Shown: piece after piece, positions 1 to 29,975 of the stretch
How positions within the stretch are numbered: the stretch's first letter is position 1
How the letters are laid out: each line of letters opens with the position of its first letter
Made by a program: the position numbers and the translations under genes
Assembly (NCBI GenBank): GCA_020283715.1
Contig: JAIQCW010000191.1
Span: 1 to 29,975, forward strand
From: Cytauxzoon felis
Lineage: Eukaryota; Apicomplexa; Aconoidasida; Piroplasmida; Theileriidae
DNA: 29,975 nucleotides
Reading direction: 5' to 3'
Notes under the pieces: generated by a model
What the model saw: only the letters and a program-made list of their open reading frames with translations
Databases searched by the model: none
What the model was told of the DNA's origin: nothing

Positions 1-113
1 CCACGATCTCCGGGAGTGGCTCTACTCTTTAGAGATAGGTAATTAGAAGAGCTGTCTGCAAGACCAACGGTGGAGGCGAGTGGAACAGTGGTTGTAACCT
101 CAGGTGGAATTAA
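1..113. repeat. Dispersed hairpin-module repeat, cut by the window edge
   Basis: The copy begins with the CCAC/GTGG hairpin module (loop GATCTCCGGGA). It continues through the CTCTTTAGAG hairpin, the GTCTGCAAGAC hairpin and a GGCGAGTGG box, and ends with the terminal box CCTCAGGTGGA. It is clearly richer in GC than the adjoining DNA. It lies about 25 bp beyond the stop codon of the RAP gene. Confidence 0.85.
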
Positions 114-138
114 GATATGGATTAAGTATATTACAAGA

Positions 139-3100
139 TTATATATCATTATAGTATTGTTTGAGTATATTGTATAGTACTTGATGTAGTGTTGATTTAT
201 ATGCTTCATACCATGGTAATGATATGATATTATATCCCATTAATTTTAATATTCTATAATATTCAAAATTATTAATTAAATAAATTACCTATTTCTATAT
301 TTTGTTTTCCCATTTGATATTAATTTCAAATTACCAAATGATTGATAATCACAATTATAATCACCACTAAAAAATGGGGTAAATTAATATAAATTTGTGG
401 TGTTTTTACCATATAATATTGAAATGATGGGGTCCATCTAATTCTATAATTAGAAATGGTATAAATTCATTGTAATCATTGGACAAAATAAAATCTACAA
501 TAATGCCTTTATAAATTTCATATTCTCCCTTGTATAATAATTTAAATCGATCTAATACTCTTCTAACTTTATCTTGTGTTACAGACATTATTCCATGATC
601 GTATATAACTCTTGATCCATTTATTGCCATCTCTAATACATTTTCTGGTATCATCGATACTATATAATGAAATTTTATGTAATGAATATATACATACCAT
701 CTAAATTCAATTCAAATTTAATTGTAGCATAAATTTGTAAAATCTATAAATGTAAATATTATAATGGGGTTAAATTACCCTCCTTAAGTCGGGTATATTT
801 GAATGTGATGTAAAATAACCCCAGTTCACATTTGATAATATTTGAATAGCATCATTAATAGCCTATAATGTATGTGACTAATATAATATGACTCACATTC
901 TTATCAATCTTTGATACATTTGATATAAATATAGACCATAATATACAAATCAATTTTAAATCATCAAATTTATCATTACATTTCATTATAACCTTCAATC
1001 TATCCAACGATTTATATACCAAATCTTCATTCAATACATCAAAATATGCTATAGTATGCAAACATAATGATAATTGACCCAATGTTGTGCTGTTAATTAA
1101 CACCATAATCTGTGGGGTAGAAATTAATAATATTAAATATTAACGAACCTGTTTTATAATTTTCTTCAATACAGCTTCATGATAAATTCTATTCTTCTGT
1201 AATGACCATAATATCTGTACCAGAGCCTCAATCTTGACCCTCGACTTGTGATCTATAAAGGAATATTTTTTATCCTTTACACTATTCTCTCCACTTGATG
1301 TTACATTCCTGCCGTCAGCTTCTCTATTTACTTCCCCTTCCAGCTCCCATAGATCGCTTCCAGGTTATCAGGGTTTATTAGACTAATTGAGGAGTATACG
1401 AAGGAGTTGAATGGAAATAACGAATGTATTTGTAGACCTTATATATTGATGAAATACTTTTGTCACCTAATACGAGCCAAAGAATTCATGAAACGGCGAT
1501 GTAAAGTACGAATAGTAGGTTATAGGTGTTCGTGCTGCAAAACTGATCATAAAAACTGTTTAAAAGATGGAAATAAGTGCGGTATAAGTTACATAGACTT
1601 AACATCATCACCCGCAGCTGATCTCAGGGAAGCGAAGGGGGAAGTAAATAGAAGAGCTGACGGCAGGACGACTTCAGGTGGAAATGGACTAACCTGTGAT
1701 ATTGATCCATTTATTACAGAGTAGATTATAATCATCTAGTGTAAAGTTATCTATGGTGCTCGAAATGTAAAATATAAAATTCGATAGACATTGTACATCA
1801 TCAAATTCCTAAATATAAAATAAAAAACCCCACTTTACATACATTTAGTCTTTTTATGCATGTAGATTTGATTAATTTAAGTAGATATGAAATAATATCT
1901 TTACTTGATGTATTTGTATTGAATGATAAAAATTCATCTATTGTAACTGTATCATCTTTTATAAATGTTAAATGACTTCTACTTAGTATATAATGTGTAT
2001 TTATTGTCCTATATTGACTATAATCATCAATGTATGAATATAATCCGCCCAATAATTTGACATTATTTATAATTGTGGTGTTTTTTAAGTTGGGCACTAT
2101 AAATTTCAAAATTTTATGAACCCCAGAAAAATCAACTTTTAAGTATAGCAAGGACCAGCATAGATCAATTGATATGTCCATTGAACATGTAATGTTGTTA
2201 TTGTAAATTCTATAGGTGTACAATTGAGATTAATGACTTTAACTTACAAGTCGAGAAGTTCTTGTGGTACATTTGATAATTCAATTTGATTCTTGGCATA
2301 AAAATACAATACATTAGAGAGCGATGAAAAAAATTCATCTCCACTCAATAGCTCCAATTTGCCCAACAATTTATTGAATAATTGCCCAATTAAATGTATT
2401 CTATCCCCATTTAATTTAACCCCACTTGATGATTTACAAATTACACTAAATTCATTAAAGGATATATTTCCTATATTAATATTATGATTAATGATATATA
2501 ATTTAACCTTTCCCATCATTATATAAGGAATTTATATCTTTAACCCTCAATTTCTCGTCTATAAGTGACTTGAGGATAGTGTCGTAGAAATTTAAGTCCA
2601 AGGCTTCTAATTTGATTAAATTTATCAAACCCAACAAATCATCAAGTTTAATAGTAATCCCCACATTTTTTATGCGTTTGGAAAGTTCATTTGATAATAA
2701 GTGTGTAATAAATGAATTATTTAATTTATATGAGGATGATGAGATAATGTTATTAATCAGTTGATTATCATCTATGGATTCCATGCTTTTATCCAGAATA
2801 TTCCCGACAGTATCAATCACAGCTTTAGAAAGTTCTTTTTGTTCCATAGGGTTGATTAGTCCTGGAGTGCATAAACTTCTACCAACATTTAACAAACCTC
2901 GTGTTTCAGTTTTCAATACCTCACATGCGATCATAATAATCTGTTGTACATCCAAATTATTAACTTCAACACTACCATCTTCCACCAAAGCCAAAACATC
3001 CTTTACAACAGTCAGTGTTTTGTGCGACAACATCTCCAGAGACGAGGGCACAACACTCGCTCCCTCCTTGATGTTACAGTGACGAAACTCCTTTAACATT

Positions 3101-4139: not shown

Positions 4140-6113
4140 TTGAGTATAACATCTCATACACTCCAGGAGATTATTAATCTATGCAATGAGAAGGTGGAGA
4201 TTAAGTGTCCAGTGAAGAAGGAGGAAGAGAAAAAGGTTGGGACTAGTTGTGGAACTAATCCTGTTCAAGTAGCATCTCAAGGTGGTCAACAGAATAATTG
4301 TTGCTGCATCAGTGGGTTGAAGGGATCAAAAGATAATATTACAAATGCGAGTATTAAAGCATTATTGGATAATATACAAGTTAATGGTTGTAAATGTTGT
4401 TCCAGTACTGAGACTGATCACATGCAAACATTCGTAACTAAATCTAAGGATGCTCTGAAGACATCAGGGAAGGTCTTGATAAAGGAGATAGAGAAGGTTC
4501 CGTTAGGTGATAATGAAAGTACAATTGAAGATGTGAAATTGTTAAAGGAATATACACATCAAGTCTTGTGGTTCTTACTCTCTTATGTTGCAGTGGAAGA
4601 ATATATTTTAATATGCACATGGCTGTGTAGACTTAAAGAGTATTTGTGTAAGATTATCAATTGTCTGAAGAGTCAGGAGAATAGTCCATGTAAACAGTGT
4701 TGCGAACATTTAAAAGGCAAGGAGGACAAAAAGGATTGTATATGTAGGATATTATGTAACATCATATGTCTACTTATAAAATCTATAAAGAGGTTACATA
4801 ATCATAAGAGGGAGATTATTTTAAGGAAGGATACTACGACCCCTGTTGATTCTAAATGTAAATGTGAATGTTGTCAAAAGGATGGAGCCAATGGAAAATG
4901 CACATGTGTTGAGAATGTAAAGAAGAAGGAGGATGAATCTTTTACTGTATCTACGAAATCTTTGGATAATATAAGGTCGACGATTCTCATATTTTATGGT
5001 ATGGAGAAGATAATTAAAAAGTATGAAAAATTAGGTTGTAAGGATGGCAAATGCAAATGTGAGGATAAGTCTGAAAACTACACAGAATGTCTATCGTTAT
5101 TATCTGTATGTTATAACATTCTGGTAGATCTTTCATCAATGAAGGACGGTACTCTACCCATGGCTGTCACGTGGTTATCCAATTGTTTGATGTTTGCAGG
5201 TGAGAATGATAAATCTTCTTTGAGTCTGGATAATGAGTATAGCTGCCGCCAATCTAAGTATAAATCTGATTCTGATTGCAATAATAGTAAGGTTGATGAG
5301 TTGGTTAAGAAATATAATGCGATGATTGAAAAGGCTGAGGAATTGAGTGGAGTTACAGATAATATAAATAGTGGAACGAATTGTACTGGTACTCTTCAAT
5401 CATGTGGTTCAAGTACTGGAGATTCAGGTACTTGTGGGAGTGGTGAAACAGGTAAAGAATGTAGTTGCAATGATGACTGTGGATGCCAAAATTCGGCTAG
5501 TAGTACAACTGAAGATAAAAATGTATTTAAGAAATTGTGCGAAATGATGTGTTGCAATGGAAGTGGAAATTGTACTTGTAGTAGTAATTCTGGGAAGTGT
5601 CAATCTATAAGATCGTTTTGTAAGGAAGTAGATGGTTTTATAAAATTGGTGAATAGTGTTATTAAACCAAATGGAGCATCACAAGAATCTACATCTCCAA
5701 CTACTCAATGTGAATGTAAGAACAGTAATTGCGATTATTGTAAAACCCGTCGCTTCATTAGACTCGTTGAGGTGTATACTGAGAAGTTAAAGGAGGTACA
5801 TAAATGTAAATGCAATAAACCCGATTGGGGTGATGCGGTCATTGATATAACGTTAGACGTAGGCTTTGCCCTAGCTAGAACTACAAAAGTTGCCTTAGAT
5901 ATGTTTGGTTTAAGTTCTAAGAATGGTAATACCGAAAATGGCCAAGGAACAAAACAAATTACTCAAGGATCCAAGCTAAAATTTTATGAGTGCAAGTGTT
6001 GTATAGATAAAAAAGAAGGAAACTGCCTAAAGGATGGAAAATATATGATGTATGCCGTATATAGTAGACCTCAAGTGGAACCCGTAGCTGATCTCAGGGA
6101 AGCGGAGGGATAA
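4140..6113 (+). CDS. Large cysteine-rich protein, possible multigene-family antigen
   Basis: A single 657-codon open frame very rich in Cys and Lys, with repeated CxC and CC groups (for example CKCECC, CCCISG, CDYCK) spread from the N-terminal third to the C-terminus. Two hydrophobic helical stretches lie at about residues 140-180 and 200-220; no clear signal peptide or terminal membrane anchor is visible. The frame opens at TTG, not ATG, directly after CAG at 4139, so this is probably a 3' exon whose first exon I cannot place, or a gene broken at its 5' end. A second, partial member lies at 1371-1590. The C-terminus runs into a repeat module read in the usual frame and stops where that module departs from consensus (6111-6113). 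The cysteine pattern is loosely reminiscent of piroplasm variant surface proteins such as Babesia VESA, but I cannot show homology. Confidence 0.7.
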   Translation: MSITSHTLQEIINLCNEKVEIKCPVKKEEEKKVGTSCGTNPVQVASQGGQQNNCCCISGLKGSKDNITNASIKALLDNIQVNGCKCCSSTETDHMQTFVTKSKDALKTSGKVLIKEIEKVPLGDNESTIEDVKLLKEYTHQVLWFLLSYVAVEEYILICTWLCRLKEYLCKIINCLKSQENSPCKQCCEHLKGKEDKKDCICRILCNIICLLIKSIKRLHNHKREIILRKDTTTPVDSKCKCECCQKDGANGKCTCVENVKKKEDESFTVSTKSLDNIRSTILIFYGMEKIIKKYEKLGCKDGKCKCEDKSENYTECLSLLSVCYNILVDLSSMKDGTLPMAVTWLSNCLMFAGENDKSSLSLDNEYSCRQSKYKSDSDCNNSKVDELVKKYNAMIEKAEELSGVTDNINSGTNCTGTLQSCGSSTGDSGTCGSGETGKECSCNDDCGCQNSASSTTEDKNVFKKLCEMMCCNGSGNCTCSSNSGKCQSIRSFCKEVDGFIKLVNSVIKPNGASQESTSPTTQCECKNSNCDYCKTRRFIRLVEVYTEKLKEVHKCKCNKPDWGDAVIDITLDVGFALARTTKVALDMFGLSSKNGNTENGQGTKQITQGSKLKFYECKCCIDKKEGNCLKDGKYMMYAVYSRPQVEPVADLREAEG

Positions 6114-6209: not shown

Positions 6210-7553
6210 TTATATAGAGTTATTGATTTCATCATCATTACCGTTATTATTTTTACCTTTATCATTATCATTATCATCATTATTATCATTTAAGATTGTA
6301 TTCTCATCATTATCTAATTCGATATTAATTTTATTTTTATTATTTTCATTAATATTTTTAAACATTGTAGCGATATCTAATTGATGTTGTGCGATAGATT
6401 TATGTTCTTTATTATTATTATTATTATTAGGATTTAATAAATAATTTTTTTTACGATTAGATGTGATATGTAATTTTAATTCATATGGTATTTTACCTTC
6501 AGAATCCATTAAATTATATAAATTATCAAAATTTTCTTTTAAATTTTCATATTCATATTTAAGCATACATGTTATTTGATTATTTACATCTAATTTCTCT
6601 TGTAATATATGTAAACCTTTTATCCTTAATCTCTGTATATTATCAAACTCATTATTCGAATCCATCATCAAATCAGATGATCCATCCCTACTCGTAGTCC
6701 TCTTACCTAAATAATATCATATTTAAACAATCATCAATACTATCTTCCACCTGAAGTCCAATCCACCCCTTTTCATCCTGCCGTCAGCTTCTCTATTTAC
6801 TTCCCCTTCCAGCTCCCGTAGATCGCTTCCAGGTTCCACTTGAGGTTATAATCTAATCTCGACGAGATAAGGATAAAGTGATGGAATCCATGTTTGAAGG
6901 GTTATCTCAATGAATATAAATTGAATTAAAGTGAGGATGAGTATACTCAATACAATCATCAAATTCCTTTTCATTGAAGTATTGACATCTGAATTTCATC
7001 CAATGGTCATTCCACAATTTTCATGAGTTTCGCCAGAAATTGAGATTTTCCTTCAAATTTTAGAGGTAAATGTGAAGGTAGTGTTTGGACCTCAAGTGGA
7101 GACCTCAAATGGAATACCCGTAGCTGATCTCAGGGAAGCGGAGGGGGAAGTAATTAAAAGAGCTGACGGCAGGACGAAGAGAGTTGTATTGGACCTCGAG
7201 TGGAGTGGAAATGAAGATTAGGGTGAAGGTGATGAAGTATTTCAATTATTGTCATGCTTACCTTTTGATATTCTAGATGAAGAAGATGACGATGGTGTAT
7301 TACAAGAGTTCTTGGAATTATTGATTGAAGATGATGAATTACTTTTATCTGAATCTTTTTTGGTATTGTTAATTGATGATGATGTATTATTACAAGAATT
7401 CTTTTCATTATTAAATAAAGCTTGTGCTCGTTCATCAGCATCATTAAATAAAGCTGAAGATTTCAAATCCAAATCACGCATTAATAATAAATTACGTCTA
7501 ACAAAACCTGGTAATCCTAATAAATCATCTGTAACATCATCAGAATTATCCAT
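6210..7553 (-). CDS. ING-family (inhibitor of growth) N-terminal domain protein, two exons
   Basis: Probable chromatin-associated subunit of a histone acetyl- or deacetylase complex. Exon 1 is 7553-7262 and exon 2 is 6706-6210; together 789 bp, 262 residues. Residues about 8-45 carry the ING signature (LLGLPGFVRRNLLLMRDLD...DADERAQALF). After a low-complexity Ser/Asn stretch, the second ING helix follows (NIQRLRIKGLHILQEKLDV, then a coiled-coil-like segment). The tail is Asn/Asp-rich. No PHD finger, normally C-terminal in ING proteins, is encoded before the stop or in the 96 bp before the convergent cysteine-rich gene. The ATG at 7553 follows a possible short leader intron. The single intron (7261-6707, 555 bp) is filled by a core-bearing repeat. 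Its donor is AAAAG/GTAAGC and its acceptor ATTATTTAG/GT, phase 1. Confidence 0.78.
6745..7206. repeat. Core-bearing dispersed repeat in the ING intron
   Basis: The left side is an inverted module set starting TTCCACCTGAAGTCC, with the AGC/GCT hairpin. The middle is the ~240 bp AT-rich core. The right side is a forward set (box acctcaagtgg twice, GCT/AGC hairpin, GAGCTGACGGCAGG) ending ggacctcgagtgga. Unique intron sequence flanks it on both sides, so the splice sites are not part of the repeat. Confidence 0.85.
6846..7086 (+). repeat. AT-rich core element, copy 1
   Basis: It opens with the near-palindrome ATCTCGACGAGAT and continues aaggataaagtgatgga. It ends near ttttagaggtaaatgtgaag, followed by a terminal box. 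Three other copies occur (15999-16239 reversed, 23728-23974, 27223-27470). This copy is closer to the 27 kb copy than to the other two. Confidence 0.85.
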
Positions 7554-7905: not shown

Positions 7906-9597
7906 ATGTGTGGCCTATTTCAACCTATAGGTCAAGTAAGATTAACAAATGTAGCAACTGTACGGTTAAAAGTTAAAGATCAACGATTTGAAATTGCATG
8001 TTATAGGAATAAGATTGTTAATTGGCGTTCAGGTATAATATATAATCTCTATTATATTACATATAAATATATTAATAGGTGTAGAAACAGATATACAAGA
8101 GGTATTACAATGTCCATATATTTTCACGAGTATATCAAAGGGTAAATTAGCTAAAAATGCTGAGTTAATTAAAGCATTTAATACAACAGATACATTTACA
8201 ATCTGTAAACAAATATTAGATAAAGGTATTGTCATACTCTCTATCATTTTATAACATCTACCATAGGTGAATATCAAATCAGTAAAGAAGAAAGAGAACA
8301 ATTACTAGAATCAACTTTTAAAGATATTGTCTCAATATTACATGAAGTTACAATAAATCCAAACACTGGTCATCCATTAGCTCGTAGTCTATTAGAAAAT
8401 GCATTAAAATCTACAGGATTTAGTGTTACATTAAATGAACCAGCAAAAAAACAAGCACTTAAAGCATTAAGCCTATTACAAAAATTTTACCCAGATGATA
8501 TCGCAAGAACAAAAATGAGATTAAGAATCACATGCCTCTCACAACAACATGATCAAGTACTAAATTATCTCAAAAACAATAATGCATACATCGAACAAGA
8601 TGAAGGATATAATTTTAATTATCAACATCATGTTCCATCCGCCGAAGGTACTACACTCGAGGTCCAATCCGACTCCTCTTCCACTTCCACCATAGGTCGT
8701 CCTGCAGACAGCTCTTCTCCACTTGAGGTCCATCCTGCCGTCAGCTCTTCCAATTACCTATCTCTAAAGAGTATAGCCACTCCCAGAGATCGTGGCGAAG
8801 AATCCGAGACGATCCATGGGAGTCGAGGTGAGGTAAATAGAGAGGCCACCACGCCTAGTGGAATGAGGAGTAGTACTGGACCTCAGGTGGAACCCGTAGC
8901 TGATCTCAGGGAAGCGGAGGGTGATATAAATAGAGAAGGCTCCACGCCGAGTGGAATGACCTCAGGTAGAATGGAGAGTAGTATTGTAACCTCAGGTGGA
9001 GTTGATGATGATGTTATGGATTCATCTAGATATAGTGGTGTTATAAGGATATTATTTTTATGTTGTCCTAGTTTATTTAGGGAGATTGATTCATTTGTTG
9101 TTGATGTTATGGATCCTCCTGGTTCATTACAGTTAGTTTCATTAAATGTTAAAGATATTACTAATAAATCTATTGATAATGATGGTAATATATTATCCCC
9201 ACATAAAATAAAAAATATGGTGGTTAAAGGGGGTAATTTAACCCCATCAGTAGAATCATCTATTATTGATGGTGATAAAACTATACAAGATGTTACATCT
9301 AATGAATTTAATACATCATTAAGTGGGGATTTTGATAAAAAAATGTCTATAAATGAAGTAATAAATACAGATTCTATCAATACCAATATGAATAACCTAG
9401 TCACATCACCAACATCTGGATCATTTAAATGTACAAGCTGTAATATTTATCTACCAAGCGCCTCAAATTATAGAAATCACTGCAAAAGCGATCTACACGT
9501 ACTAAATTCAAAAAGGAAATTAAAAGGAATGGAACCAATCACAGAAGATGACTACAAATTCATTAAAGATAATATTGAAAATAATACAGAAAAATGA
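7906..9597 (+). CDS. SBDS: SBDS/Sdo1 ribosome maturation protein with an in-frame repeat insertion
   Basis: SBDS works with the EFL1 GTPase to release eIF6 from nascent 60S subunits. Exons are 7906-8032, 8079-8225 and 8267-9597 (1605 bp, 534 residues); the introns are 46 and 41 bp. Domain I is clear ([48 protein letters not shown]). Domain II and the start of domain III follow ([30 protein letters not shown]). Domain III is then interrupted by about 116 codons of dispersed repeat (8653-9000) and resumes with [19 protein letters not shown] and [13 protein letters not shown]. The C-terminal extension ends in a C-x2-C-x12-H-x5-H zinc finger (residues about 475-495), as in plant SBDS proteins. 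Eukaryotic SBDS is usually about 250 residues, so the excess is the insertion plus this tail. The identity is firm; whether the insert is translated is not tested. Confidence 0.93.
8653..9000. repeat. Exonic dispersed repeat inside SBDS
   Basis: 348 bp (116 codons) without an in-frame stop. It begins acactcgaggtcc and ends gtaacctcaggtgga. It contains the CTCT-AA-AGAG hairpin, the CCAC/GTGG hairpin in reverse, the GAC/GTC hairpin, the GCT/AGC hairpin and two CCAC...GTGG boxes. Read in the SBDS frame it gives [21 protein letters not shown] and VADLREAEG, as in other exonic copies. No AT-rich core is present. Confidence 0.9.
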
Positions 9598-9608: not shown

Positions 9609-9826
9609 TTCCACCTGAGGTTACAACCTCTGTTCCACTCGCCGTGGTGGCTTCTTCTATCTACTTCCCCTTCCAGCTCCCGTAGATCGCTTCCAGGTTT
9701 TCCACTTGAGGTTACATCACTACCCTCTCATTGCCACGATCTCTGGGAGTGGCTCTACTCTTTAGAGATAGGTAATTAGAAGGGCTGACGGCAGGACGAC
9801 CTACGGTAGAGGTAACCTCGGGTGGA
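9609..9826. repeat. Intergenic dispersed repeat just downstream of SBDS
   Basis: It starts 12 bp after the SBDS stop. Order: tccacctgaggttac, CCACTCGCCGTGG, AGC/GCT hairpin reversed, tccacttgaggttac, CCAC/GTGG hairpin, CTCTTTAGAG hairpin, GCTGACGGCAGG, then gtaacctcgggtgga. The rest of the gap to 9971 is unremarkable AT-rich DNA, presumably the promoter of the next gene. Confidence 0.85.
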
Positions 9827-9970: not shown

Positions 9971-12900
9971 ATGTATAGTGCTTGTGTTTCTATGTTGAAT
10001 ATGAGTGATTTTAATCTTCATTTATCATGTGAAGATGGTAAATGTACTGAATGTGTATGTAATGTGTTATTATCACCTGTATCTGATACTGTAAAATTAA
10101 AACTATTAATTCGTATATCGTATATAATATCATCTATAAATGATAAAAAAATTCCAAATTTCATTAATGATGATTATAAAATTTCTAAATTACAGGAGAT
10201 ACTTGTATGTCTATTCCATGTTCAATGTAATTTCAACCTTATTAGGTCCTTGTCATTTCCGATTCTGTATATTTAGAAGCTGATGGACCATTCAATAAAT
10301 CTAGGGAATTGATTGATAGAATAATAGAGTAGGTGAATTTTTGGAAAATAATGAAATTTTTAGTATATTGTTATGTATGAATTTATTATTACCGAGGTCT
10401 ATCAATGCTATTGATGGCACTTGTTCATTGGTTTTGATCATATTGAAGCGGTTAAAATCAATGGAAATTGATCAATTACCAATTGAGGATTATAAATTTA
10501 TATTGATTTTATTGGAAGAAGTTGTTAAACGTGGCAGAGGGATTAAAGAGGTATTTAAATCACTTGGTAATTATAATCTCTGTAGGCTAGAGATATAATT
10601 TCAACATCTTGTTCAATAATCCTTCGGTTAAAGAATGAAAATATTCTTCAAGTATCGATATTGTTGCATATAATCATGTTGTTATTGGATAAATCATTTG
10701 AAAAGACATTTGTATATGGACTTGAATTGAAGCTTATAAAATTCTTAAAGGATTACAAGTATAAATATAATATACGTTTATTATCATTAGGTATATTAAC
10801 TATTATATATAATAAAATAGATAATGATGCTATTGATAAATTGGTATCGGTATTGATTAATATAATTATATCCATGAGGAATAGTAATGATATTAAAATA
10901 CATTCAGCATCTTTGCTGAGTAAAATGTTAAATGAACGAGTGATTAATATGGATGAGATTATAAATGGTATTGGATTATATCGATGGTTATTTGAATGTT
11001 TAAGGGTGAATGATTATATTATTGGGTATAAGATGGTAAAATTCATCATGAAAAACTATATGGAATGCACTATAAACTTGAATAATGGTATAGTCAAAGG
11101 TATTTTTCTCTAAATTTAAATTCATTACCACCCCACTTAGATGTTGAAATGTTGATTTCAATAATAATAAATATAGTCGAAACAAATGTATATAACAAAG
11201 ACATATTGAATTACGCGTTAATAGTAATAGATCTTATTAAACATATCATTAATAAAAATGACGCGCGCGTCGAGAAAGAAATTTTAACGCTGTTAATTTA
11301 TGGAATACAGAAGGTGATGAAAATTAATGAAGACGAGAGTGAATCTCCACCTGAGGTTACCTCTACCGTTGGTCTTGCAGACAGCTCTTCCAATTACCTA
11401 TCTCTAAAGAGTAGAACCACTCCCAGAGATCGTGGCGTATGTAGGGTTGTGGGGGAAAGTGGGGATAAAAAACACTATAATTTTCCACCTGAGGTTACCT
11501 CTACCGTTAGTAGAATATCTGTTCCACTCACCGTGGAGGCCTCTTCTAATTACCTATCTCTAAAGAGTAAAGCCACTCCCAGAGATCGTGGCAGTGTTAA
11601 AGGTAGTACTGGACCTCGAGTGGAGACCTCAAGTGGACTACCCGCAGCTGATCTCAGGGAAGCGGAGGGGGAAGTAAATAGAGGAGGCACCACGCCTAGT
11701 GGAAAGACCTCAGGTGGAGATGAGTACAGGAGTTCGAGTGGAGATGTTCATATGTTGATGAGGAATTTATCAATTTCGATAGAATTTTGTGAGATTTTAC
11801 ATAATTTTACGATATTAACAATGGATTATATAAATTGTATATTGAATAAAAGAGTAAATTTTTATTAATTTTCAGGTATAAAAATGAATAAAATGTTTAA
11901 TTTATTCAATGAATTTTATAAATTGATGTAAGGATATCCAAAATTTCATCTCATTTTTATATACTTCAGGCTTAATATTTTAATAAATCTTATCTCATAT
12001 GTCAATGTCACATCAAAATATCATAATCTAAATCAATTCATCAAGACCACCATACATCTCGCCACTATTATACTGGAAATACCCAATCATAATAATCAAC
12101 TCTATAATAGAGGTTTTCTCCCACCTGAGGTTACCACTCCTTTCCCACTAGCCGTGGATACCTCTCCACCTGAGGTCCATCCTGCCGTCAGCTCTTCCAA
12201 TTACCTTCCCGTAAACGGTAGAGCCACTCCCGGAGATCGTGGCATAGAATCCGAGACGATCTATGGGAGTCGAGGTGAGATAAATGGAGAAGGCCTCCAC
12301 GGCGAGTGGAAGATTTCAAGTGGAGACTGCAGGAATGTAACCTCAAGTGGAAGAGCTCTATGTAATGGGAAACGAACGTTGAATTTTAATAATGATCATA
12401 CCTCGATAATAATGGGGCAATGTAGGGATAAAAAACCTCATAATGGTAATAAACCCCATAATTCTAATACTATTGATCGTGACTTTACAAATGATGAAGG
12501 TAATGATCAGACCTCAAGTGGACTACCCGAAAACGATCTCTGGGAGTTTGAGGGGGAAGTAAATAAAGGAAGCTCTCTGCAAGAGGAAAATAAGGTTGTA
12601 ACCTCAGTTGGAACGCCTAGTGGAAAGACCTCAGGTGCATCTGAGTGGCTCATAATAGTATATACATTAGATATGATATTGGTATGTTAATTAAATTTAT
12701 GTTATATATATATATAGTTGAATGATGTTGATGATAATATTAATGTATATATAAAATTCTTGTATTATACTTGTAAATCATTAAGGGATGGTTATAAATA
12801 TTCAAAGGATCAGAAGATTTATATTCATGGTGCTATAGGTATATTAGATGTTATTAATGGGGTATATTTATTATTATAGTGTCAATTGATATTATAAAGT

Positions 12901-19970: not shown

Positions 19971-22031
19971 ATGAATTATCTTCTATTATGCATTGTAGTA
20001 TTATGTAAATATTCAATCGCAGGGGAACGACGTACTAAACGGGTTAATGTAGATATAAAAATTAAGGAGGGAACAGATGAAGTTGAAGTGTCAAAAGGAG
20101 AGACTGGCAATGTTATTGCCTACAGCATTAAACCTAAACTTGACCGTGGATTTCGCAAAATTTCGGATGATAGGTGTTTACTTTATTTATCCAAAGATGG
20201 TGATAATTTCGAAGGAACAGAAGTTTTTTACTTGAAGGGCATTGAAGGACCTATTATTGTCAAACTGATGTTTGTAAATAGTTATGCTAGTGGTAAATTT
20301 AGGTACATTTATTATCTTCGCTTTGTTGATGAATGGACAATGGTAACGCAACGAATATTTAATTATGCCGTGAAAAAACTAAATGAATGTAAACCTGACA
20401 GTGAGGGGAAGATGATTCTTCCAAAATTTATAGATATTGACCTTAACAATAGAAAGAGTAGTGATGGGATTGATGTTGAATGCAATAAATACGGTGATGA
20501 CAAATGGAATATAAAATATGTGCCAAAGAGTGGATGTCATATATTGATAATAAATGTTGGCATACAGACTTTATGGTTTCTAGGTGGAAATTATAATGTT
20601 CCTAATGAGGTTAATGTAACCATTACAGATGATGTTGTTATTTCTTTGACCTTTAAGGGGACTGATATAGGGGAGCTGACAATTATCAAATATAAACTAT
20701 ACCCAGGAAAAACTAAATACAGTGTATCAGGTCGCGATGATATTGATATTAAGAAAAAAGCAACTTTGGTTAAACATGTTGAAGATGCAGGTGAAGATGA
20801 TGAAGATGAACATGGATTAATAGAAGATCAATATGAATGGATAGGGGGAATAGAAGTCACTGAAGGAGAGATGAAACAATTGAACGAATATCTACAAAGG
20901 AAAGCTAGGGGTGAAGTACATGAAGAATTTGTAGTGGCCGAATTACCAGAGATAGAAGTTGATGAACAAGAGAAGGAATATATTGAACCTGAAGCCGATC
21001 TCGGGGAGGCGGAGGGGGAAGTAATTGAAGAAGGCACCACGCCTAGTGGAGAAGATGTTGAAATTGAAGTAGCTCTCGAGGAGGTGAAGGAGAGCGTAGA
21101 AGTACAAGATCCTATAGTAGATATTGTAGATGGATTATCATATGAATCTATAGATGTAGATGATTTAATAGTACCTGAGGTTGAGGATATAGAGATTGAT
21201 ATACTCTTGTTGGATCCATCATGTCATATCAAGAGAACATATGGTGAGACTACACATACTATAGCATTCATAACTCCTCATCGTGCTGTTAAAGTAAAGT
21301 ATGGTGATTTATTACTATGGGAATCTGAGAATATGGATGAACATTGTAAGATCATTGATGTATTTAGTAAAAATGGGAATGATTTAATGGTACTCTCCAT
21401 CCTCAATGATAAAACCTCCTCAATCCTCCCTGGTTTCTACCATTGTAGTAGAGATTTTGAATGTAATAAATTCAATTATGAGAACTTCGTATATATGTGG
21501 AATGAATTTAAATTCACATTTGACACCATTGGGGGTATCATTGATTACTCGGATTACAGCCGAGTGATGGAAATTGTCGGTGAACCTTTAGATGATGAAC
21601 TCCCATATGGTAGATGTGGTATCGATGATTACTTCAAAGACTTGAAACCAATTACACTAGACATTTACAATCACGAGACTGAAGGGTTAGAAGTTAAGGT
21701 TAAACAATACTCAAATTATACATCTACTATTCACACATGTAGACCGAAAGATGGATACATACTGGACTCTGTCTATGATTCACAACGTAATGAAATGTTA
21801 TGGAAGAGATATAGGAATAATAAATATGCTGTAGTGGCACTCGTTGACGCTAATGACCTTGAACTCATTGTAATATTTGTAATTGATGTCAATCCTCAAA
21901 AGTCTGAGGTTATATATTACAAGTACTCATTGTTATATGGATGGGAGGAATGCTTCAGAGAACCTCTCACAAAATGTTACTTAGATACTGTCATTAAAGG
22001 AGAATGGAGAATCTCCGATAAAATTTTGTAA
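19971..22031 (+). CDS. Large secreted protein with FAINT-like blocks
   Basis: 686 residues in one exon. A signal peptide is clear (MNYLLLCIVVLCKYSIA, then GERR). Residues about 25-270 form repeated beta-rich blocks separated by a helical segment. A very acidic linker follows (about 280-410, Glu/Asp-rich). Residues about 415-670 carry further blocks (HIKRTYGETTHTIAFI and TLDIYNHETEGLEVKV starts; LLWESEN and MLWKRYRNNKYAVVAL cores) that resemble the FAINT domain common in Theileria secreted proteins. No membrane anchor or GPI signal is evident, so it is probably released. Within the linker (codons about 340-360) is one hairpin-repeat module in the standard frame, now encoding EADLGEAEGEV and GTTPSGED. 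The ATG at 19971 is chosen because it begins the signal peptide. Confidence 0.8.
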   Translation: MNYLLLCIVVLCKYSIAGERRTKRVNVDIKIKEGTDEVEVSKGETGNVIAYSIKPKLDRGFRKISDDRCLLYLSKDGDNFEGTEVFYLKGIEGPIIVKLMFVNSYASGKFRYIYYLRFVDEWTMVTQRIFNYAVKKLNECKPDSEGKMILPKFIDIDLNNRKSSDGIDVECNKYGDDKWNIKYVPKSGCHILIINVGIQTLWFLGGNYNVPNEVNVTITDDVVISLTFKGTDIGELTIIKYKLYPGKTKYSVSGRDDIDIKKKATLVKHVEDAGEDDEDEHGLIEDQYEWIGGIEVTEGEMKQLNEYLQRKARGEVHEEFVVAELPEIEVDEQEKEYIEPEADLGEAEGEVIEEGTTPSGEDVEIEVALEEVKESVEVQDPIVDIVDGLSYESIDVDDLIVPEVEDIEIDILLLDPSCHIKRTYGETTHTIAFITPHRAVKVKYGDLLLWESENMDEHCKIIDVFSKNGNDLMVLSILNDKTSSILPGFYHCSRDFECNKFNYENFVYMWNEFKFTFDTIGGIIDYSDYSRVMEIVGEPLDDELPYGRCGIDDYFKDLKPITLDIYNHETEGLEVKVKQYSNYTSTIHTCRPKDGYILDSVYDSQRNEMLWKRYRNNKYAVVALVDANDLELIVIFVIDVNPQKSEVIYYKYSLLYGWEECFREPLTKCYLDTVIKGEWRISDKIL
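20984..21052. repeat. Single repeat module inside the FAINT-like gene
   Basis: Contains gccgatctcggggaggc, gaggggg, gaagtaat and then CCACGCCTAGTGG. The arms of the hairpin are GCC/GGC in place of GCT/AGC, so pairing is kept. Terminal boxes are not recognisable, which suggests an old, adapted insertion. Confidence 0.75.
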
Positions 22032-22097: not shown

Positions 22098-22418
22098 TCC
22101 ACATGAGGTCTTCCACTCGCCGTTCCACCTGAGGTTATATCCACCTATCCTTCGTCTTGCAGACAGCTCCTTTATTTATATCCCCCTTCGCTTCCCTGAG
22201 ATCAGCTACGGGTTCTCCACCTGAGGTTACATTGTTAACTTCCTGTTCTTCCGGGTTAACATTCTCTGTTCCTCCGGGTAGATTTCCTGTTCTTAGGGGT
22301 TGAACATCTACGTTCTTCCGGGTAGACATACCGAGGATGATCTACGGGAATCCGAGGGGAGGTAATTAGAAGAGGCTCCACGCCTAGTGGAATAGATGTG
22401 GATTGGACCTCGAGTGGA
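22098..22418. repeat. Dispersed repeat between convergent genes
   Basis: Starts tccacatgaggtc and ends ggacctcgagtgga. It holds a reversed GTCTTGCAGAC hairpin, a reversed GCT/AGC hairpin, a local tandem repeat, a GGAT/ATCC hairpin with loop GATCTACGGGA (22335-22353) and a CCACGCCTAGTGG box. It fills most of the gap between the FAINT-like gene and the end of the NOT4-type gene. Confidence 0.85.
22235..22322. repeat. Imperfect tandem repeat, four units of 21-23 bp
   Basis: Units begin ttaac, ttaac, tagat and ttgaac. Three of the four end in tccggg and the third ends in agggg; each holds a gttcttccggg-like part. Found only here within the window, embedded in a dispersed repeat. Confidence 0.75.
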
Positions 22419-22448: not shown

Positions 22449-25281
22449 TTAGCTATTGTATAATTCTTGTAGATGATTGAAACATTCTTGTTGTCTTTTG
22501 ATTTGTTGATTGATTAATTTTTCGGTTTGTAATTGTAATTGTTTATGTATTTTACCTTGTACTATTAATTGTGATTCATCTAAAGATGGATCATATAATA
22601 TACTGAGTGCATAGCATTCGAATGAATTATTATTATTATTATTATCAGACCAATTATTAGAACTATCAATAGTAGGTGATGATGTTTGTAATTGTAAATC
22701 ATTATTATTATTATTTAATGTATTAATAATTTTAGAATCAGGATTATATTGTCTAGATAAATTATCTAATAATAATGTATGTCTTTTAATTTTATGTATA
22801 ATATCATTAATAATATTATCATCAGGTATTAAATCATTAGGTTTTATATTTAATTTATTTAATTCTATAGGTAATTTTAATTTAATATTATTAATTTTTT
22901 TATAATAATCTAATTGTTGTCTATAACGATCTATATTTAAATTATTAATTATTGTTGTATTATTATTATTATAATTATATAACCATTTCCATAATTTTTT
23001 AACATTATTATCTTCATGTTCATGTTCATCTTTATTATTATTAGATGATATTATATTTACTATAGATTCTAAATTATTATTATTCTTCTCTTGTTTTGTT
23101 ATATCTAATACAAATAATATTTGATCACAATTATTATATCTTAACATTGTATTATCAATTGGTATATCAAATATTGATTGATTAATATTTATACTATCAA
23201 TACCAATTGTATTCTATAATAATTTAAATATATATAAAATATAACATGAAACATACAATATTTAATGAACGTTGACGAATATTATCATATAAATATGATG
23301 TATTCTTTATACCCGTATATTCATTCATATTATGTAACTTTTTAGATAATAAATGTAAATCCACATCATTATTATTATTATTTATTTTTATAGATGCTAT
23401 ATTAATATTATTTAACAATAACCATAAACTCACAATTTATCATCGAATGTCCCATACTCTCCATCTTAACATCGTCATATACACGCTGCGATTTCTTCTC
23501 TTCTATATATGAATTTAGTAAAATATTTATATACAATACACTCAACTCGAAGTCCAACCGACGACCGTTAGGTCTAGGTCCAATCCACCTCTTCACTTCC
23601 ACTCGCCGTTCCACCTGAGGTCGTCTTGCAGACAGCTTCTCCACTCGAGGTCGTCTTGCAGACAGCTCTTCTATTTACTTCCCCCTTCGCTTCCCTGAGA
23701 TCAGCTGCGGGTATTCCACTTGAGGTTATATTTCTAATCTCGACGAGATAAGGATAAAGTGACGGAATTCATGTTTGGAAGGATATATCAATGGAAATAA
23801 CTAAGAATCTAATGGAATTCAGGAAATTAAATACAATCATCAAAAACTATTCAATGAAGTATTGACATTTATATTACATTCAATATTCATTGAGATATTG
23901 TCGGTAGTTTCCCCAGAAATGATGGAATTCCGCTTAATTCTGAGGGTAAAAATGAAGGTAGTGGAAAACAGTGATTAGACCTCAAGTGGAAGTGGAATAC
24001 CTGGAAGCGATCTCTGGGAGCTGGAAGGGGAAGTAAATAGAGAAGCTGTCTGCAAGACGATGGAAGGTGGAACAGCGAGTGGAAGGAGAGTTGGATTGGA
24101 CCTCAAGTGGAAGACCCGTAGCTGATCTCAGGGAAGCGGAGGGGGAGGTAAAAGGAAGGGGCGCCACGCCTAGTGGGAGAGGCGAATGTAATGATTGGAC
24201 CTCAGGTGGAGGACCCCGAGTGGATTGTCAACATACTATGATTGATGATATGTGTTATATTGTTAGACTTTGTTGATAGAATGGGTGTAGGATTGATGAG
24301 TAATTTTTGTTGAACATCGAATCGATTATTACCAGCGGCGACATTAGCCCAAGATTTATCTTGATTGGATGTATCTCCATTATAGATTGATGATGTATTA
24401 TCTCTTATATTGATTAATTTATTACTTCGTTGTAATAGATTTAATAATTTCATTGGTGAGTTACCATCTGTGGATTGATATGTTGTTACATCTTTATTTT
24501 TGATGGATTGTTGTGATGTATCATTATTTGATGGTAATGGATATTTTGTAAATCCCATATCTTTAGTATATCTATCATGTTCATCACCATATTCATGTAG
24601 ATAGAAGCAATCTGTATTACAACATTTCATACCTTTTAAGAAATAAGAGCAATATTTTGTTGTACCATAAGATGCACGAAGAAATTTACTTTCAGTTTGC
24701 ATAGAATTTATACCTTGTATAGCAGCAGATGCTTCAGTATTTTTAGAATATGTTATATATGCAGTATATGATGAACCACCCCAATGTGAATTATATGTAT
24801 TACTTTTATTTATAACTATATGTTGTATACGACCATATTGTCCAAAATATTCATGTTTTTTTAATATTTCTTTTTTAGCTAATTTTAATGGTATACCAAC
24901 AACATATACAAGATTTCTTTGTATAACTCTAACATCTTTTAATGATTCACTATTATTATTAGGTGTATCACCTTTATCATCTTTACATGATGAATCTTTA
25001 TCTAATCTACCTCTTTTCTTTTTAACACCTGATACACGTGATGTATTACTTCTAGTCTTTGTCATATATTTAAAATTCGATTCATCATAATCACGTCTAC
25101 ATGCTGGACATTTATTACCCATTGTAGTCCTTATATAATGAAGACACCATAAACATACTTGATATCCACAACTACAAGGATATAAATTGCGATCTGTTTC
25201 TTCCAATACTTCCATACATAATGGACATGTCTTATCATCATCACTCTCATCACTAGTTATCTCATTATATTCATCCTCCAT
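22449..25281 (-). CDS. CNOT4: NOT4/CNOT4-type RING-RRM protein, probable ubiquitin ligase of the CCR4-NOT complex
   Basis: Residues about 18-65 are the C4C4 RING of NOT4 (CPLCMEVL, YPCSCGYQVCLWCL, CPACRRDY). An RRM follows at about 115-205 (NLVYVVGIPLKLAKKEILKK, YFGQYGRIQHIVI), then the characteristic GTTKYCSYFLKGMKC...YLHEYGDE CCCH segment. Suggested exons: 25281-24237, 23502-23434, 23396-23257, 23213-22449, phase-consistent, 2019 bp, 672 residues. The 734 bp intron (24236-23503; donor GTATGTTG, acceptor TATATATAG) contains a core-bearing repeat. The downstream exons encode an Asn-rich helical region with no domain I know. Alternatively the RING-RRM protein ends within the repeat at 24202, and the 311-codon reading from ATG 23464 is a separate gene. 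The first exon is certain as NOT4; the join is inferred. Confidence 0.8.
23541..24225. repeat. Core-bearing dispersed repeat in the NOT4-type gene
   Basis: The longest copy. The left side has reversed modules with two GTCTTGCAGAC hairpins and a reversed GCT/AGC hairpin. The core follows, then AGC/GCT and GCT/AGC hairpins, CCACGCCTAGTGG and box acctcaggtgga. It is spliced out if the exon join proposed for the NOT4-type gene is right. Confidence 0.85.
23728..23974 (+). repeat. AT-rich core element, copy 3
   Basis: Opens with ATCTCGACGAGAT and contains ttgtcggtagtttcccc, shared in reverse with copy 2. It ends before gattagacctcaagtgg. Confidence 0.85.
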
Positions 25282-26129: not shown

Positions 26130-28319
26130 ATGTCAATTAATATATGTCATGATGATTCTTTAGAGAATCATGAAAATTTAACTACATTATCTAGTATATG
26201 TCTATCATGTGGATCTGATGGACTTACTAGTGTATTATCTACAAAAATTCCTCATTTCAATGGTATATTATATATATATATATATATATTAAAGTTAATT
26301 AAACTTTAGATATCGCTATAATCTCATTTGAATGTAAAGAATGTGGTTATCATAATAATGAAATACAAAATATATCTTCATTAAAAGATTATGGTATTAA
26401 ATTAATTATTAATATTAATGAAGCCAAGGTAAGTGACACTTGTTCTATTTTCAACATCCATAATGATTGTATCTCCTACATCAAGTAAATAATATTTACT
26501 TTTAGGGTTTAAATAATCAAATTGTATTATCATGTTATTCTTATATTAAATTTGGTATCTTTTTTTTAAATAATGTCTTACTTCAATATTTTCAGTTGAA
26601 TTAGATTTTGAAGTACCACCTGTACCACAAAAATCTATTATAACTACTATAGAAGGATTAGTTACATCTATAATTAATAATCTTAATGAACATATCACAT
26701 CTATTAATGATATTTTATTAAATGGTAATACAGAAATACAATTAAGTACTGGTGAAATTAAACCTATAACTGAATATTTAATATTATTATTAAAAATTAA
26801 AGATGAATTATTATCATATACTAATGGTACACATGTAAGTCTAATATAAAAAAAATTTCCAATCATTATTAATAATCATTCAAGTTTACACTAGAAATTA
26901 ATGATCCATCCGGATGCAGCTATGTAGAAATTAATGATTCTATTAAAATTCAAGAAGATAAATATACAAGAAATGATGAAATGATGAAGGTATTTTAATC
27001 ACACAATCTCTAAATCATACTCAGGATATGGGATTCGTTACAAAAAATAATGCAAGAGGTTTGTTATCTACTATACTAATCTACACACGAGGTCAAATCC
27101 ATCTCTCTTTATCCTGCCGGCAGCTCTCCACCTAAGGTCGTTCATTTCCACTCGCCGTGGTGGCCTCTTCTATTTACCTCCCCCTTCGCTTCCCTGAGAT
27201 CAGCTACGGGTTCCACTTGAGGTTATAAATCTAATCTCGACGAGATAAGACTAAAGTGATGGAATCAATGTTTGTAGAGATATCTCAATCAATATAAATT
27301 GGAATGAAGTGAGATTAATTAAACTCGATACAATCATCAAAGACCTTTTCAATGAAGTATTGAGATTTAAATTACATCCGATAGTCATTTCATAATCTTC
27401 ATGAATTTCCCAAGAAATTCAGATTTTCCTTCAAATTTTAGAGGTAAAATGAAGTAGTGGAAGTCAGTGATGTAACCTCAAGTGGAACCTGGAAGCGATC
27501 TACGGGAGCTGGAAGGGGAAATAAAAGGAAGAGTCCTCCACGGCAGTGGGAAAAGAAGTGGATAAGAATGTATAATGAGATGATAATTTTTTTATATAAT
27601 TATGTATAGAGCTAGATTTGAATAAGCCATTGGAGGATGAGGTATTTGATAGGGAGGGATTATTTATAAGTGTTGATTGTCCGAATTGTGGTATGGAGGG
27701 TCAGAATAAGATATGTGAATTATGTGAGTTGATGATATAAATAAATATATATTATATAGTGGTTCCTGGTTTTGGTGAATGTATTATAATGGCATTTACA
27801 TGTAATAATTGTGGTACAAGAACAAATGAATTAAAACCAGGTGGTGGTTATAAAGAATATGGTAAAGAATGGATATTATTAATAAATGATATAAATGATT
27901 TAAATCGTGATGTAATATTATCAGAAACTGCAACAGTAATTATTAAAGAATTAGAATTTGAAATGACACCTGGTACAATAGGTTCATTATTTACAAGTAT
28001 AGAAGGATTAATTATAAAAATTATAGATAATTTAGAAAATTCTTATCCATTTTTAATAGGTGATTCAGCTATAGATTTTAATAATCAATTAAAAATAAAA
28101 ATTAAACAATTATCGCAATTAATTAATAATGATTCATTATTATTTAATAATCAATTCACTATTATTATTAATGATCCAGCTGATCATTCATTCATTAGTA
28201 ATCGACCCACTATTCATAATGATAATGATGATGATAATCTTACAATCAATAAATATAAAAGAACACCCGAACAAGATGAAGAATTAGGACTCACATCAAT
28301 CAATACAGAAAATTATTAA
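26130..28319 (+). CDS. ZPR1: ZPR1 zinc-finger protein, eight exons
   Basis: ZPR1 is a conserved eukaryotic protein that binds eEF1A and acts in its folding. Exons: 26130-26262, 26310-26428, 26506-26554, 26596-26834, 26885-26989, 27025-27058, 27610-27723, 27760-28319; 1353 bp, 450 residues, all junctions in phase. Both halves of the family are present. The first C4 finger (CLSCGSDG, then CKECGYHNNEIQ) is followed by its beta domain (TTIEGLV, FTLEINDPSG). The second finger (CPNCGMEG, then CNNCGTRTNELKPGGG) has its own beta domain (TSIEGLI, IIINDPADHSF) and ends YKRTPEQDEELGLTSINTENY-like, as is typical. Intron 6 (27059-27609) is 551 bp because of a repeat; the others are 35-77 bp. Length is as expected for the family. 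Confidence 0.95.
27084..27551. repeat. Core-bearing dispersed repeat in ZPR1 intron 6
   Basis: Left terminal box is weak (cacacgaggtc). Then CTGCCGGCAG, a second box, a reversed CCAC...GTGG box and a reversed GCT/AGC hairpin lead into the core. The right side has tgtaacctcaagtgg, an AGC/GCT hairpin and CCACGGCAGTGG, where it stops without the usual final box. Confidence 0.85.
27223..27470 (+). repeat. AT-rich core element, copy 4
   Basis: Opens ATCTCGACGAGAT and then aagactaaagtgatgga. It contains aattcagattttccttcaaa, as in copy 1, and ends gtaaaatgaagtagtgg. Copies 1 and 4 form the second subfamily. Confidence 0.85.
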
Positions 28320-28370
28320 ATACAACTAATATTATTATCCAACATCTATATCATATCCATTCATACACAA

Positions 28371-28623
28371 CTCCATACGAGGTTACCACCACCGTTGGTC
28401 TTGCAGACAGCTCTTCTATTTACCTATCTCTAAAGAGTGAAGCCACTCCCAGAGATCGTGGTGAGGTTAGTGATGGATCATCCATCATGGGAATGATGGA
28501 AGATGGTGCTAAGGATGTGTTGGATGTAACCTCAAGTGGAATACCTGGAAGCGATCTACGGGAGCTGGAAGGGGAGATAAATAGAGAAGGCCACCACGGC
28601 GAGTGGAAAGACCTCAGGTGGAG
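28371..28623. repeat. Dispersed repeat between convergent ZPR1 and right-edge gene
   Basis: Starts near ctccatacgaggttacc and ends acctcaggtgga. Modules: reversed GTCTTGCAGAC, CTCT-AA-AGAG, reversed CCAC/GTGG hairpin, gatggatcatccatc unit, box gtaacctcaagtgg, AGC/GCT hairpin and CCACCACGGCGAGTGG. Its layout matches exonic copies, though it lies between two gene ends. Confidence 0.85.
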
Positions 28624-28654
28624 AGTTGTTATATATATATGTTTGATAATTGAG

Positions 28655-29975
28655 TTAGAATAGATTAAGTAGTGATTCTAATAGTGTTATTGTATTTAAT
28701 TTTGTGTTTACATTACTTTTATTATTGATTATTTGTGTATAGATATTATTTGTATAGATGCACCAATGGTGTTTTACTGATTTGTTGATTTGATTGATTA
28801 GTTGAAGGTATTTATAAATTTCAAGTTTGACTTTGTTATTATTGAATGATGATGACAATGTTAGGCAGCATTTACAAAATCCGATTATTAATGATTGTGT
28901 AATGATTGGATCTAATGTTAAACTATGAATGATTGGAACATGTTGTCTTGAAAAGTATTCAAACATTTGAGATTTATCATCTTGTGGTGTAAAATCAATC
29001 TAAATTATTAAATTAAAATTATGGGGAAATTATTATTTGTCATCAACTTACATAATTTTTTAATCTTTTAAATAATATATCCATCGACTGTCTTGACATG
29101 TCCAATACAAATGAATTTATAAATGACAATTCATTGAAGGAAGTTCCGAGCGTAGTGAGGAGGGAGGAAGATGAGTCATTGAAGGCAGTGGGGTCATTGA
29201 AGGCAGTGGGGTCATTGAAGGCATTGGAGTCATTGAAGGCATTGAAGTCATTGAAGGTACCAACAGTCTCATCCACATCTTCCATACATGTCAATATACT
29301 TTTAATCCTTTTACATAATAATTCATCTATCCTAATGGTGTAAATAATTTGTTCCATGAATAAATTTGATGATTCTTCATGGAAAATTGTATCCATTTCA
29401 GCTAATTTATATAAATTTTCATCATTAATACATGTTAATGTATATAAATTATCATTTTTTTTAGAAAATTTAATAATTAATTCATTGATTGGTCTATATA
29501 TATTTAAATCCAAATATATTAATTGATTAAATAATTTCAATACAAATTCAATATTATAACACTATATTAATAAATATATTATTATATATATATATACTTA
29601 CCCCATATATCATTTCCAATAATTCATATATACAATTATTGTGGTGTAAATTAACCCCATTTGCACTATAACTTTCTAGTATTATAGAACAATATTTAGA
29701 AGTAATATAACGTATAAAATTATTTTCATCTTGTAATGATAAAAATAAAAATGTATATAAATGTAATGAATAATTATTAGATGGTAATATATCAGGTCTA
29801 TTAATCTTATATAAAAAGTCCAAAAACTCAAATTTTATACCCGAATTAAATATAGGCTGAATAAATCTAAATATAATATCCGAACCCAACCTTATTAAAT
29901 ATAATACATCAATCATTGAAATGTCGTAATTATCATACCGTACCCCACTTGAGGTCCAATCTCTATCTTCACCTC
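28655..29975 (-). CDS. 3' part of a helical-repeat protein gene, cut by the window edge
   Basis: Function not recognised. Exons on the minus strand: the exon ending at 29602 (open leftward from the window edge), 29561-29052 and 28999-28655; introns of 40 and 52 bp, all phase 0. The protein is Leu/Ile-rich and helical (FEFLDFLYKINRPDIL, IRYITSKYCSIILE, EIYKYLQLINQINKSV), similar in style to the 9971-17156 product but not obviously homologous. A five-fold six-residue repeat (AFND plus two residues) sits in the middle exon. At the right edge the frame continues upstream into a repeat module (DWTSSG), the same frame as other exonic copies, so this gene too seems to carry an insertion. Confidence 0.7.
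29176..29265. repeat. 18 bp tandem repeat within coding sequence
   Basis: Five units starting at 29176, 29194, 29212, 29230 and 29248, each tcattgaaggcattgga-like. On the minus strand they encode AFND followed by two variable residues. The opposite strand is open too (SLKAVG units). Confidence 0.9.
29941..29975. repeat. Start of another dispersed repeat at the right edge
   Basis: Reads ccccacttgaggtccaatc, a terminal box in inverted orientation, and then runs off the window. It is continuous with the open frame of the minus-strand helical gene. Confidence 0.75.

Follow-up and report, generated by a model that had tools for sequence, protein, structure and literature searches.

What kind of element places one and the same 11-base loop, GATCTNNGGGA, between arms that keep changing and keep pairing, inside as well as outside genes? 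The question is raised by a stretch of 29,975 nucleotides of Cytauxzoon felis (contig JAIQCW010000191.1, positions 1 to 29,975; the window, by which this whole stretch is meant). A preliminary description had noticed the loop inside six kinds of stem, and had suggested either a nucleic-acid structure read by a factor or a renewal of the stems by template switching. We consider that the hairpins are probably modules of a palindromic repeat, non-autonomous and amplified recently, that is similar to miniature inverted-repeat transposable elements (MITEs) and most similar to the coding palindromes of Rickettsia. This reading starts from the copy number, the divergent arrangement of the copies, the matched stems in three modules and the in-frame presence in open reading frames (ORFs), from which we infer a possible mechanism.

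The window was searched for exact copies of GATCTNNGGGA on both strands, and at least three complementary bases flanking the loop were counted as a stem. We found 36 copies (21 on the + strand, 15 on the − strand), and 35 of them had at least three Watson-Crick pairs directly abutting the loop. The stems were GCT/AGC (16), CCAC/GTGG (8), AGC/GCT (7), and GAC/GTC, AAAC/GTTT, GGAT/ATCC and GCC/GGC (1 copy each). All six stem types noted before were therefore present around one loop, and GCC/GGC at 20994-21010 is a seventh, absent from the earlier list. The arms had been called always complementary, which held for 35 of the 36 copies; the copy at 14717-14727 (−) has CCAC/ATGG arms and lacks the innermost pair. 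Likewise, GAC/GTC stems do occur at the three places given for them, but the loops at 8808 (GATCCATGGGA) and 13680 (GATTAATGGGA) are variants. An outer CC/GG pair with GA opposite GA was seen in the GAC, GGAT and AAAC types and not in the CCAC type, while the GCT and AGC types, as read from the sequence, have an extra nucleotide between the G and the A of the outer flank. The GAC type does sit one base out of codon register, as had been stated, since the translations show SETIHGSRGEVNR versus PVADLREAEGEVNR. The G+C content of the window is 30.0%. No tRNA genes were found in it, and an Rfam scan covering the window gave 0 matches above the gathering score, which ruled out a known RNA family for the hairpin there. 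The hairpins are listed below (CCAC arms are classed as L, most others as R, and GGAT is counted as G); they come from the loop search unless another source is named.

1-19 (+): hairpin CCAC/GTGG, L type
1342-1358 (−): hairpin AGC/GCT, R type
1617-1633 (+): hairpin GCT/AGC, R type
6087-6103 (+): hairpin GCT/AGC, 3' end of the cysteine-rich ORF
6811-6827 (−): hairpin AGC/GCT
7123-7139 (+): hairpin GCT/AGC
8776-8796 (−): hairpin GCCAC/GTGGC, L type, in the SBDS-like ORF (loop search, translation)
8808-8824 (+): hairpin GAC/GTC, variant loop GATCCATGGGA (arm listing)
8899-8915 (+): hairpin GCT/AGC, in the SBDS-like ORF (loop search, translation)
9675-9691 (−): hairpin AGC/GCT
9733-9753 (+): hairpin GCCAC/GTGGC
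11417-11435 (−): hairpin CCAC/GTGG
11572-11592 (−): hairpin GCCAC/GTGGC
11647-11663 (+): hairpin GCT/AGC
12223-12243 (−): hairpin GCCAC/GTGGC
12255-12271 (+): hairpin GAC/GTC
12531-12549 (+): hairpin AAAC/GTTT
13618-13638 (−): hairpin GCCAC/GTGGC
13680-13696 (+): hairpin GAC/GTC, variant loop GATTAATGGGA (arm listing)
13909-13925 (+): hairpin GCT/AGC
14713-14731 (−): CCAC/ATGG copy without the innermost pair
14826-14842 (+): hairpin GCT/AGC
15075-15091 (+): hairpin GCT/AGC
15938-15954 (−): hairpin AGC/GCT
16261-16277 (+): hairpin GCT/AGC
17269-17285 (−): hairpin GCT/AGC
17676-17692 (+): hairpin GCT/AGC
19451-19467 (+): hairpin GCT/AGC
20994-21010 (+): hairpin GCC/GGC, seventh stem type
22190-22206 (−): hairpin GCT/AGC
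22335-22353 (+): hairpin GGAT/ATCC
23689-23705 (−): hairpin GCT/AGC
24006-24022 (+): hairpin AGC/GCT
24121-24137 (+): hairpin GCT/AGC
27188-27204 (−): hairpin GCT/AGC
27494-27510 (+): hairpin AGC/GCT
28443-28461 (−): hairpin CCAC/GTGG
28550-28566 (+): hairpin AGC/GCT

A loop-anchored search of the whole assembly (8,623,106 bases, 181 contigs), the first step of the check that the preliminary description had proposed, gave 7,145 copies of GATCTNNGGGA (3,565 on +, 3,580 on −) against 14 (8 on +, 6 on −) for the reversed pattern, which served as the control. The family consensus was conserved far past the 11-mer on both sides. In a 230-kb sample (the window and a further 20 stretches, each of 10 kb, from the same genome), repeated 12-mers, from the hairpin repeat plus any other family, made up 12.4% of the sequence versus 0% in a Markov control. 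This sample held 226 exact loop copies, 213 of them with at least three pairs; the remaining 13 include arm chimeras such as AAGC/AGC and AGCT/GCT. The arm combinations AGCT/AGCG (83), CCAC/GTGG (77) and AAGC/GCTG (34) prevailed, and the other 32 copies were spread over 21 minor combinations, partly matched (GGAT/ATCC 4, AAAC/GTTT 2, AAGT/ACTT 2) and partly chimeric or mismatched.

To look at the stems without bias, only the outer CC-GA and GA-GG and the loop were fixed, and the stems were left free. This pattern had 628 copies in the genome and 0 in its control. Among the first 100 of the 628 in contig order, pairs 1, 2 and 3 were Watson-Crick in 96, 97 and 96%, where independent arms would give 54, 50 and 49%; for pair 4 the observed and expected figures were 61% and 40%. 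Copies within families share ancestry and are not independent events. When the 17 distinct arm types were counted once each, 41 of 51 inner cells were paired (permuted mean 22.5), and none of 20,000 permutations was as high. For 27 distinct sequences, the paired cells (90.1% vs. 75.1% shuffled), the double-changed cells (38 vs. 14.3) and the covariation score (0.544 vs. 0.251) each exceeded all 500 shuffles, and sliding the partners by 1-3 columns gave at most 48.9% pairing. A version with a three-base stem was GAC/GTC in 93 of 100 copies listed of 179 (counted by eye), and an AAC/GTT version had 158 genome copies. Moreover, the swap from AGC/GCT to AGT/ACT is synonymous on both arms: in translations of listed sequences the peptide is PESDLRELEG either way. 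The earlier claim that arm changes are matched while not tracking the encoded residues is thus borne out by the genome-wide pairing and this swap, and because the matched arms do not follow the residues, a nucleic-acid structure is favored.

Swapped matching stems occur in three modules of one repeat, since two further hairpins behave in the same manner. In the window they were recognized from the sequence and a genome-wide pattern:

25-34 (+): second hairpin module, CTC-TTTA-GAG
54-64 (+): third hairpin module, GTC-TGCAA-GAC
12209-12218 (−): TTTA module with the alternative stem CCG/CGG

Hairpins with the TGCAA loop had 2,123 genome copies (control 9) and those with the TTYA loop 1,501 (control 0). 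Among 100 listed copies of each, 91 were completely paired, with three main stem types: GTC/GAC (61), CCA/TGG (19) and CTC/GAG (11) for TGCAA, and CTC/GAG (69), CCG/CGG (12) and CCC/GGG (10) for TTYA, with 9 imperfect stems in either case. The third TTYA pair is uninformative, its observed pairing (0.97) being equal to the expected (0.97).

The copies are arranged as divergent pairs. Neighboring loop copies stood in the order −+ 88 times (82 within 400 bp, median 106), +− 79 times (only 3 within 400 bp), ++ 24 times and −− 14 times. The 87 −+ units within 600 bp were R-L (35), L-R (32), R-R (15), R-G (3), G-R (1) and L-L (1). Each unit consists of two arms directed outward from the center. The main hairpin of an arm reads CC-GA-[3-4 bp]-GATCTNNGGGA-[3-4 bp]-GA-GG, or has the CCAC form; beyond it lie smaller hairpins (TTYA, TGCAA and other loops) and then ends such as ACCTCRRGTGGA. 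Outer ends resembling TCCACYYGAGGT and ACCTCRRGTGGA, that is, terminal inverted repeats, could be placed in 44 of the 87 units. Several R-R units have a common core of ~250 bp. This second dispersed core lies between R arms at 6813-7136, 15940-16274, 23691-24019 and 27190-27507 of the window, and contains a palindrome near TCTCGACGAGA. In several R-G units the GGAT arms are preceded by related CCGGGTAGAC repeats.

Some units lie within open frames, and they do so directionally. L-R units were open on the + strand in 16 of 32 cases and on the − strand in 1, R-L units on the − strand in 14 of 35 and on the + strand in 1, and R-R units in 0 of 15. Since 43% of length-matched random segments were open on some strand, the coding signal is the direction and not openness as such. 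Three of the 67 L-R and R-L units were at edges. Among the 64 evaluable ones, both 300-bp flanks were open in 13, and the joining frame was open in all 13 (the same was true of 94.7% of 3,000 random segments whose flanks were open); one flank was open in 11. The 13 in-gene units measure 189-521 bp between end motifs. The arm-to-arm distance fell in class 0 in 34 of 68 L-R and R-L pairs, a moderate frame bias. Pfam matches were obtained for 7 of 10 unit-bearing ORFs scanned (tRNA-synt_1, SMC_hinge, Sec1, MIF4G, Peptidase_C48, Gpi16 and SBDS) and no Pfam family for the other 3. The following frames of the window carry such modules:

8224-9594 (+): SBDS-like open frame, with an L-R unit in frame in the linker (translation, Pfam, alignment with Theileria equi)
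11086-11865 (+): open frame with an in-frame L-L-R array (translation)
11932-12687 (+): open frame with in-frame L, GAC and AAAC modules (translation)
13303-14220 (+): open frame with an in-frame L-GAC-R array (translation)
14391-15305 (+): open frame with an in-frame L-R-R array (translation)

The SBDS match is to SBDS domain II. In T. equi the homologue can be aligned to either side of the unit and lacks a stretch of this kind. Units are thus present in frame in ORFs with conserved domains. Because of these in-frame units, the Pfam matches of their ORFs and the two-sided T. equi alignment, the units are likely translated. Peptides resembling GEVNR, NYLSLKS and PPEVTS recur in frame across many ORFs. 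NPEEQ/YPEEQ peptide repeats adjoin hairpin modules in another frame (L025:334-2343, −). The ORF with the tRNA-synt_1 match also has a LeuRS editing domain. In the LeuRS-like ORF beside a repeat unit (L022:3321-6284, +) this domain matches profile positions 2-106 of 185; as proof of insertion this case is weakened, its own domain being partial and the best structure match continuing without an editing domain. The SMC structure match covers only one side of the insert.

How such a repeat would spread can be sketched as follows. The element may spread as a single strand, of DNA or RNA, with its hairpins folded, and a putative enzyme or binding protein would recognize the constant loop and the GA-GA steps but not the stem letters. 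With such stem-blind reading, replicating lineages could alter their stems only as matched pairs. After insertion, copies would drift almost freely; exonic insertions would survive only if an L-R unit is in sense and in frame, and would then be translated as low-complexity inserts. A more specific proposal is put forward tentatively: a mobile element of a eukaryote, present at thousands of sites of a compact parasite genome and in many proteins, whose copying proceeds through a folded strand and depends on an enzyme that reads loop and GA-GA geometry but is blind to the stem, with the result that several hairpins acquire new stems as matched pairs.

The variation within families fits this sketch in part. 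In 98 copies of the GCT family, the loop letters other than NN had 0-4 changes per position, as had the GA/GA mismatches and the stem-adjacent loop letters, versus up to 27 in the spacer. Taken together, all variation amounted to 0.5-1.2% in the loops, compared with 7-17% in the spacers. Private (rare) alleles, from scans that allow 10 mismatches, so that families overlap, were found in 13 of 2745 loop cells (0.47%), 10 of 2186 stem cells (0.46%) and 53 of 6107 spacer cells (0.87%), a depletion of less than two-fold (P = 0.046 for loop and 0.062 for stem against spacer, uncorrected). This suggests that constraint acted on replicating lineages, whose young copies then drift. Since the variants that copies have in common avoid the loops, whereas for private mutations the difference is below two-fold, the element seems to require pairing when it is copied and not at each individual site. 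A comparable pattern of variation could also arise by gene conversion between copies.

Several results weigh against this reading. In 40 of the 64 evaluable units neither flank was open. A target-site duplication of 3-5 bases was seen in 0 of 44 units with approximate ends, the other 43 of the 87 units examined being left out for want of a clear end motif, and 2-base matches (3) were close to expectation (2.8). A mobilizing enzyme was not found: the RVT_1 profile gave one locus in the genome (no transposase profile was searched), two pieces of one frame of 1010 aa that is perhaps telomerase; a retrotransposon source was rejected on this ground. Neither an empty site nor an insertion polymorphism turned up, so that the element is only presumed to be mobile. 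Among the 27 distinct sequences, pairs with a double change and further pair types remained at the shuffle level (244/500 and 257/500). Within families, one-sided stem changes outnumbered paired double changes (33 vs. 15, with at most 7 mismatches in the scan; 12 vs. 1 in the CCAC family), which is expected from drift after insertion and not from strict maintenance. The hairpins are weak by themselves. For DNA, with energies of −1.3 to −4.2 kcal/mol (z −1.9 to +1.0), the proposed stem was in the predicted fold of 4 of 7 main types, the other 3 folding otherwise. As RNA it formed in all 7 (−5 to −9.5 kcal/mol, z −1.55 to +0.73), and no type reached z −2 against shuffles as DNA or RNA. Finally, in a strand-specific wobble test meant to tell RNA from DNA folding, one-sided synonymous variants had no strand bias (15 vs. 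13 in the GCT family, 10 vs. 7 in the CCAC family), with small numbers.

Among other explanations, the one that survives best, though rather unlikely, is a renewal of the stems that serves no function, one arm being copied onto the other by template switching or by gene conversion directed by the palindrome. Such automatic compensation gives matched arms without selection, the arm chimeras suggest recombination between copies, and the less than two-fold difference of private mutations among loop, stem and spacer agrees with it. However, the renewed tract would need to break off after the same 3-4 bp on every occasion and in all three modules, and neither the GA/GA mismatches nor the adjoining loop letters, which are not complementary, are healed to a perfect palindrome. 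Of the two proposals made earlier, a nucleic-acid structure is favored and template switching becomes less likely. It is unlikely that the hairpin acts within every host transcript, say as a binding site for a protein or a signal for processing, with selection on the host gene keeping all copies paired. Conserved loops with variable stems resemble structured RNAs, and the RNA stem predicted in all seven types often has an inner UC/GG pair closing a four-base loop. But the depletion of private mutations in loop and stem is weak, synonymous wobble and mismatch variants were about equal (15 vs. 13), and units occur both inside and outside ORFs.

Introners with inverted repeats are known, and GAGGTTACA and TGTAACCTCAG in the inverted-repeat ends resemble splice sites by eye. 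Nevertheless, units spliced out as new introns are highly improbable here: introners have no need of an open frame, whereas all 13 units with open flanks were open in the linking frame, like ordinary coding sequence, and L-R units were open in one direction only. If selection acted on a disordered peptide and the DNA palindromes were a by-product, the recurrent in-frame peptides would be accounted for; yet this is very unlikely, given that the AGC/GCT to AGT/ACT change is synonymous, that the GAC type retains its hairpin despite the register shift, and that R-R units, none of them open, carry the same hairpin. Unrelated sequences sharing an 11-mer by chance, which the preliminary description had named as the contrary case, are virtually impossible with 7,145 against 14 copies and a consensus extending past the 11-mer on both sides.

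The palindromic repeat favored here may be compared, by description, with known systems. The closest published idea appears to be the Rickettsia palindromic element: short palindromic repeats between and inside genes, in frame in conserved proteins as here (PMC2229807). Those elements are bacterial, form a single long stem-loop of 105-146 bp, and numbered 19 intragenic cases in a study cited there (PMC2229807), whereas the present units belong to a eukaryote, have thousands of copies, and comprise several short fixed-loop hairpins with swapped stems over 189-521 bp. Like MITEs, the units are small and dispersed, have inverted-repeat ends (44 of 87) and no coding capacity of their own was seen; unlike MITEs, they had no target-site duplication of 3-5 bases (0 of 44, approximate ends). 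Hairpin-forming repeats of sponge mitochondria are also dispersed and thought mobile, but their stems are conserved and their loops vary (PMC2800124); here it is the loops that stay constant and the stems that change, pairwise, in an 8.6-Mb genome rather than an organelle. Nematomorph mitochondria have inverted repeats within translated genes, which are long, perfect palindromes and not a dispersed shared-loop family (PMC6649704). PARCELs are palindromic coding repeats too, but encode a 25-residue tandem amphipathic protein motif, and the PARCEL text contains neither "Theileria" nor "Apicomplexa" (PMC2996958). No description of this hairpin repeat family was among the papers listed in our literature search.

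A cysteine-rich ORF at 4140-6113 (+) of the window belongs to a multigene family with 33 genome matches. By eye, the ends L049, L051 and L053 have the same junction with a repeat arm as this ORF, and the R-R pair at 1345-1630 encloses a fragment resembling the 3' part of the family, as if gene pieces could be carried between arms. A FAINT domain (PF04385) occurs in the ORF at 19971-22031 (+), a NOT4-like ORF has 68% identity to Theileria orientalis across 67% of the query, and the SBDS-like ORF has 42% identity to T. equi across half its length. These three matches point to a piroplasm-like apicomplexan host on the Theileria side. No near-identical protein was among the matches listed for the NOT4-like, SBDS-like and element-rich ORFs, and for the last none of 912 candidates reached E 10.

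Piroplasm genomes are regarded as almost devoid of mobile elements. A survey of 64 apicomplexan genomes reported that class II transposons were absent from the phylum, discarded its MITE candidates, and gave no elements for C. felis, T. parva, T. annulata and T. orientalis (PMC9141347). If the present reading is true, a dense and partly in-frame palindromic family would contradict this near absence of mobile elements in piroplasms. It would also offer thousands of natural replicates, each with a fixed loop and a swapped stem, in which the needs of a structure-reading factor could be tested, and would show to what extent conserved proteins tolerate inserts.

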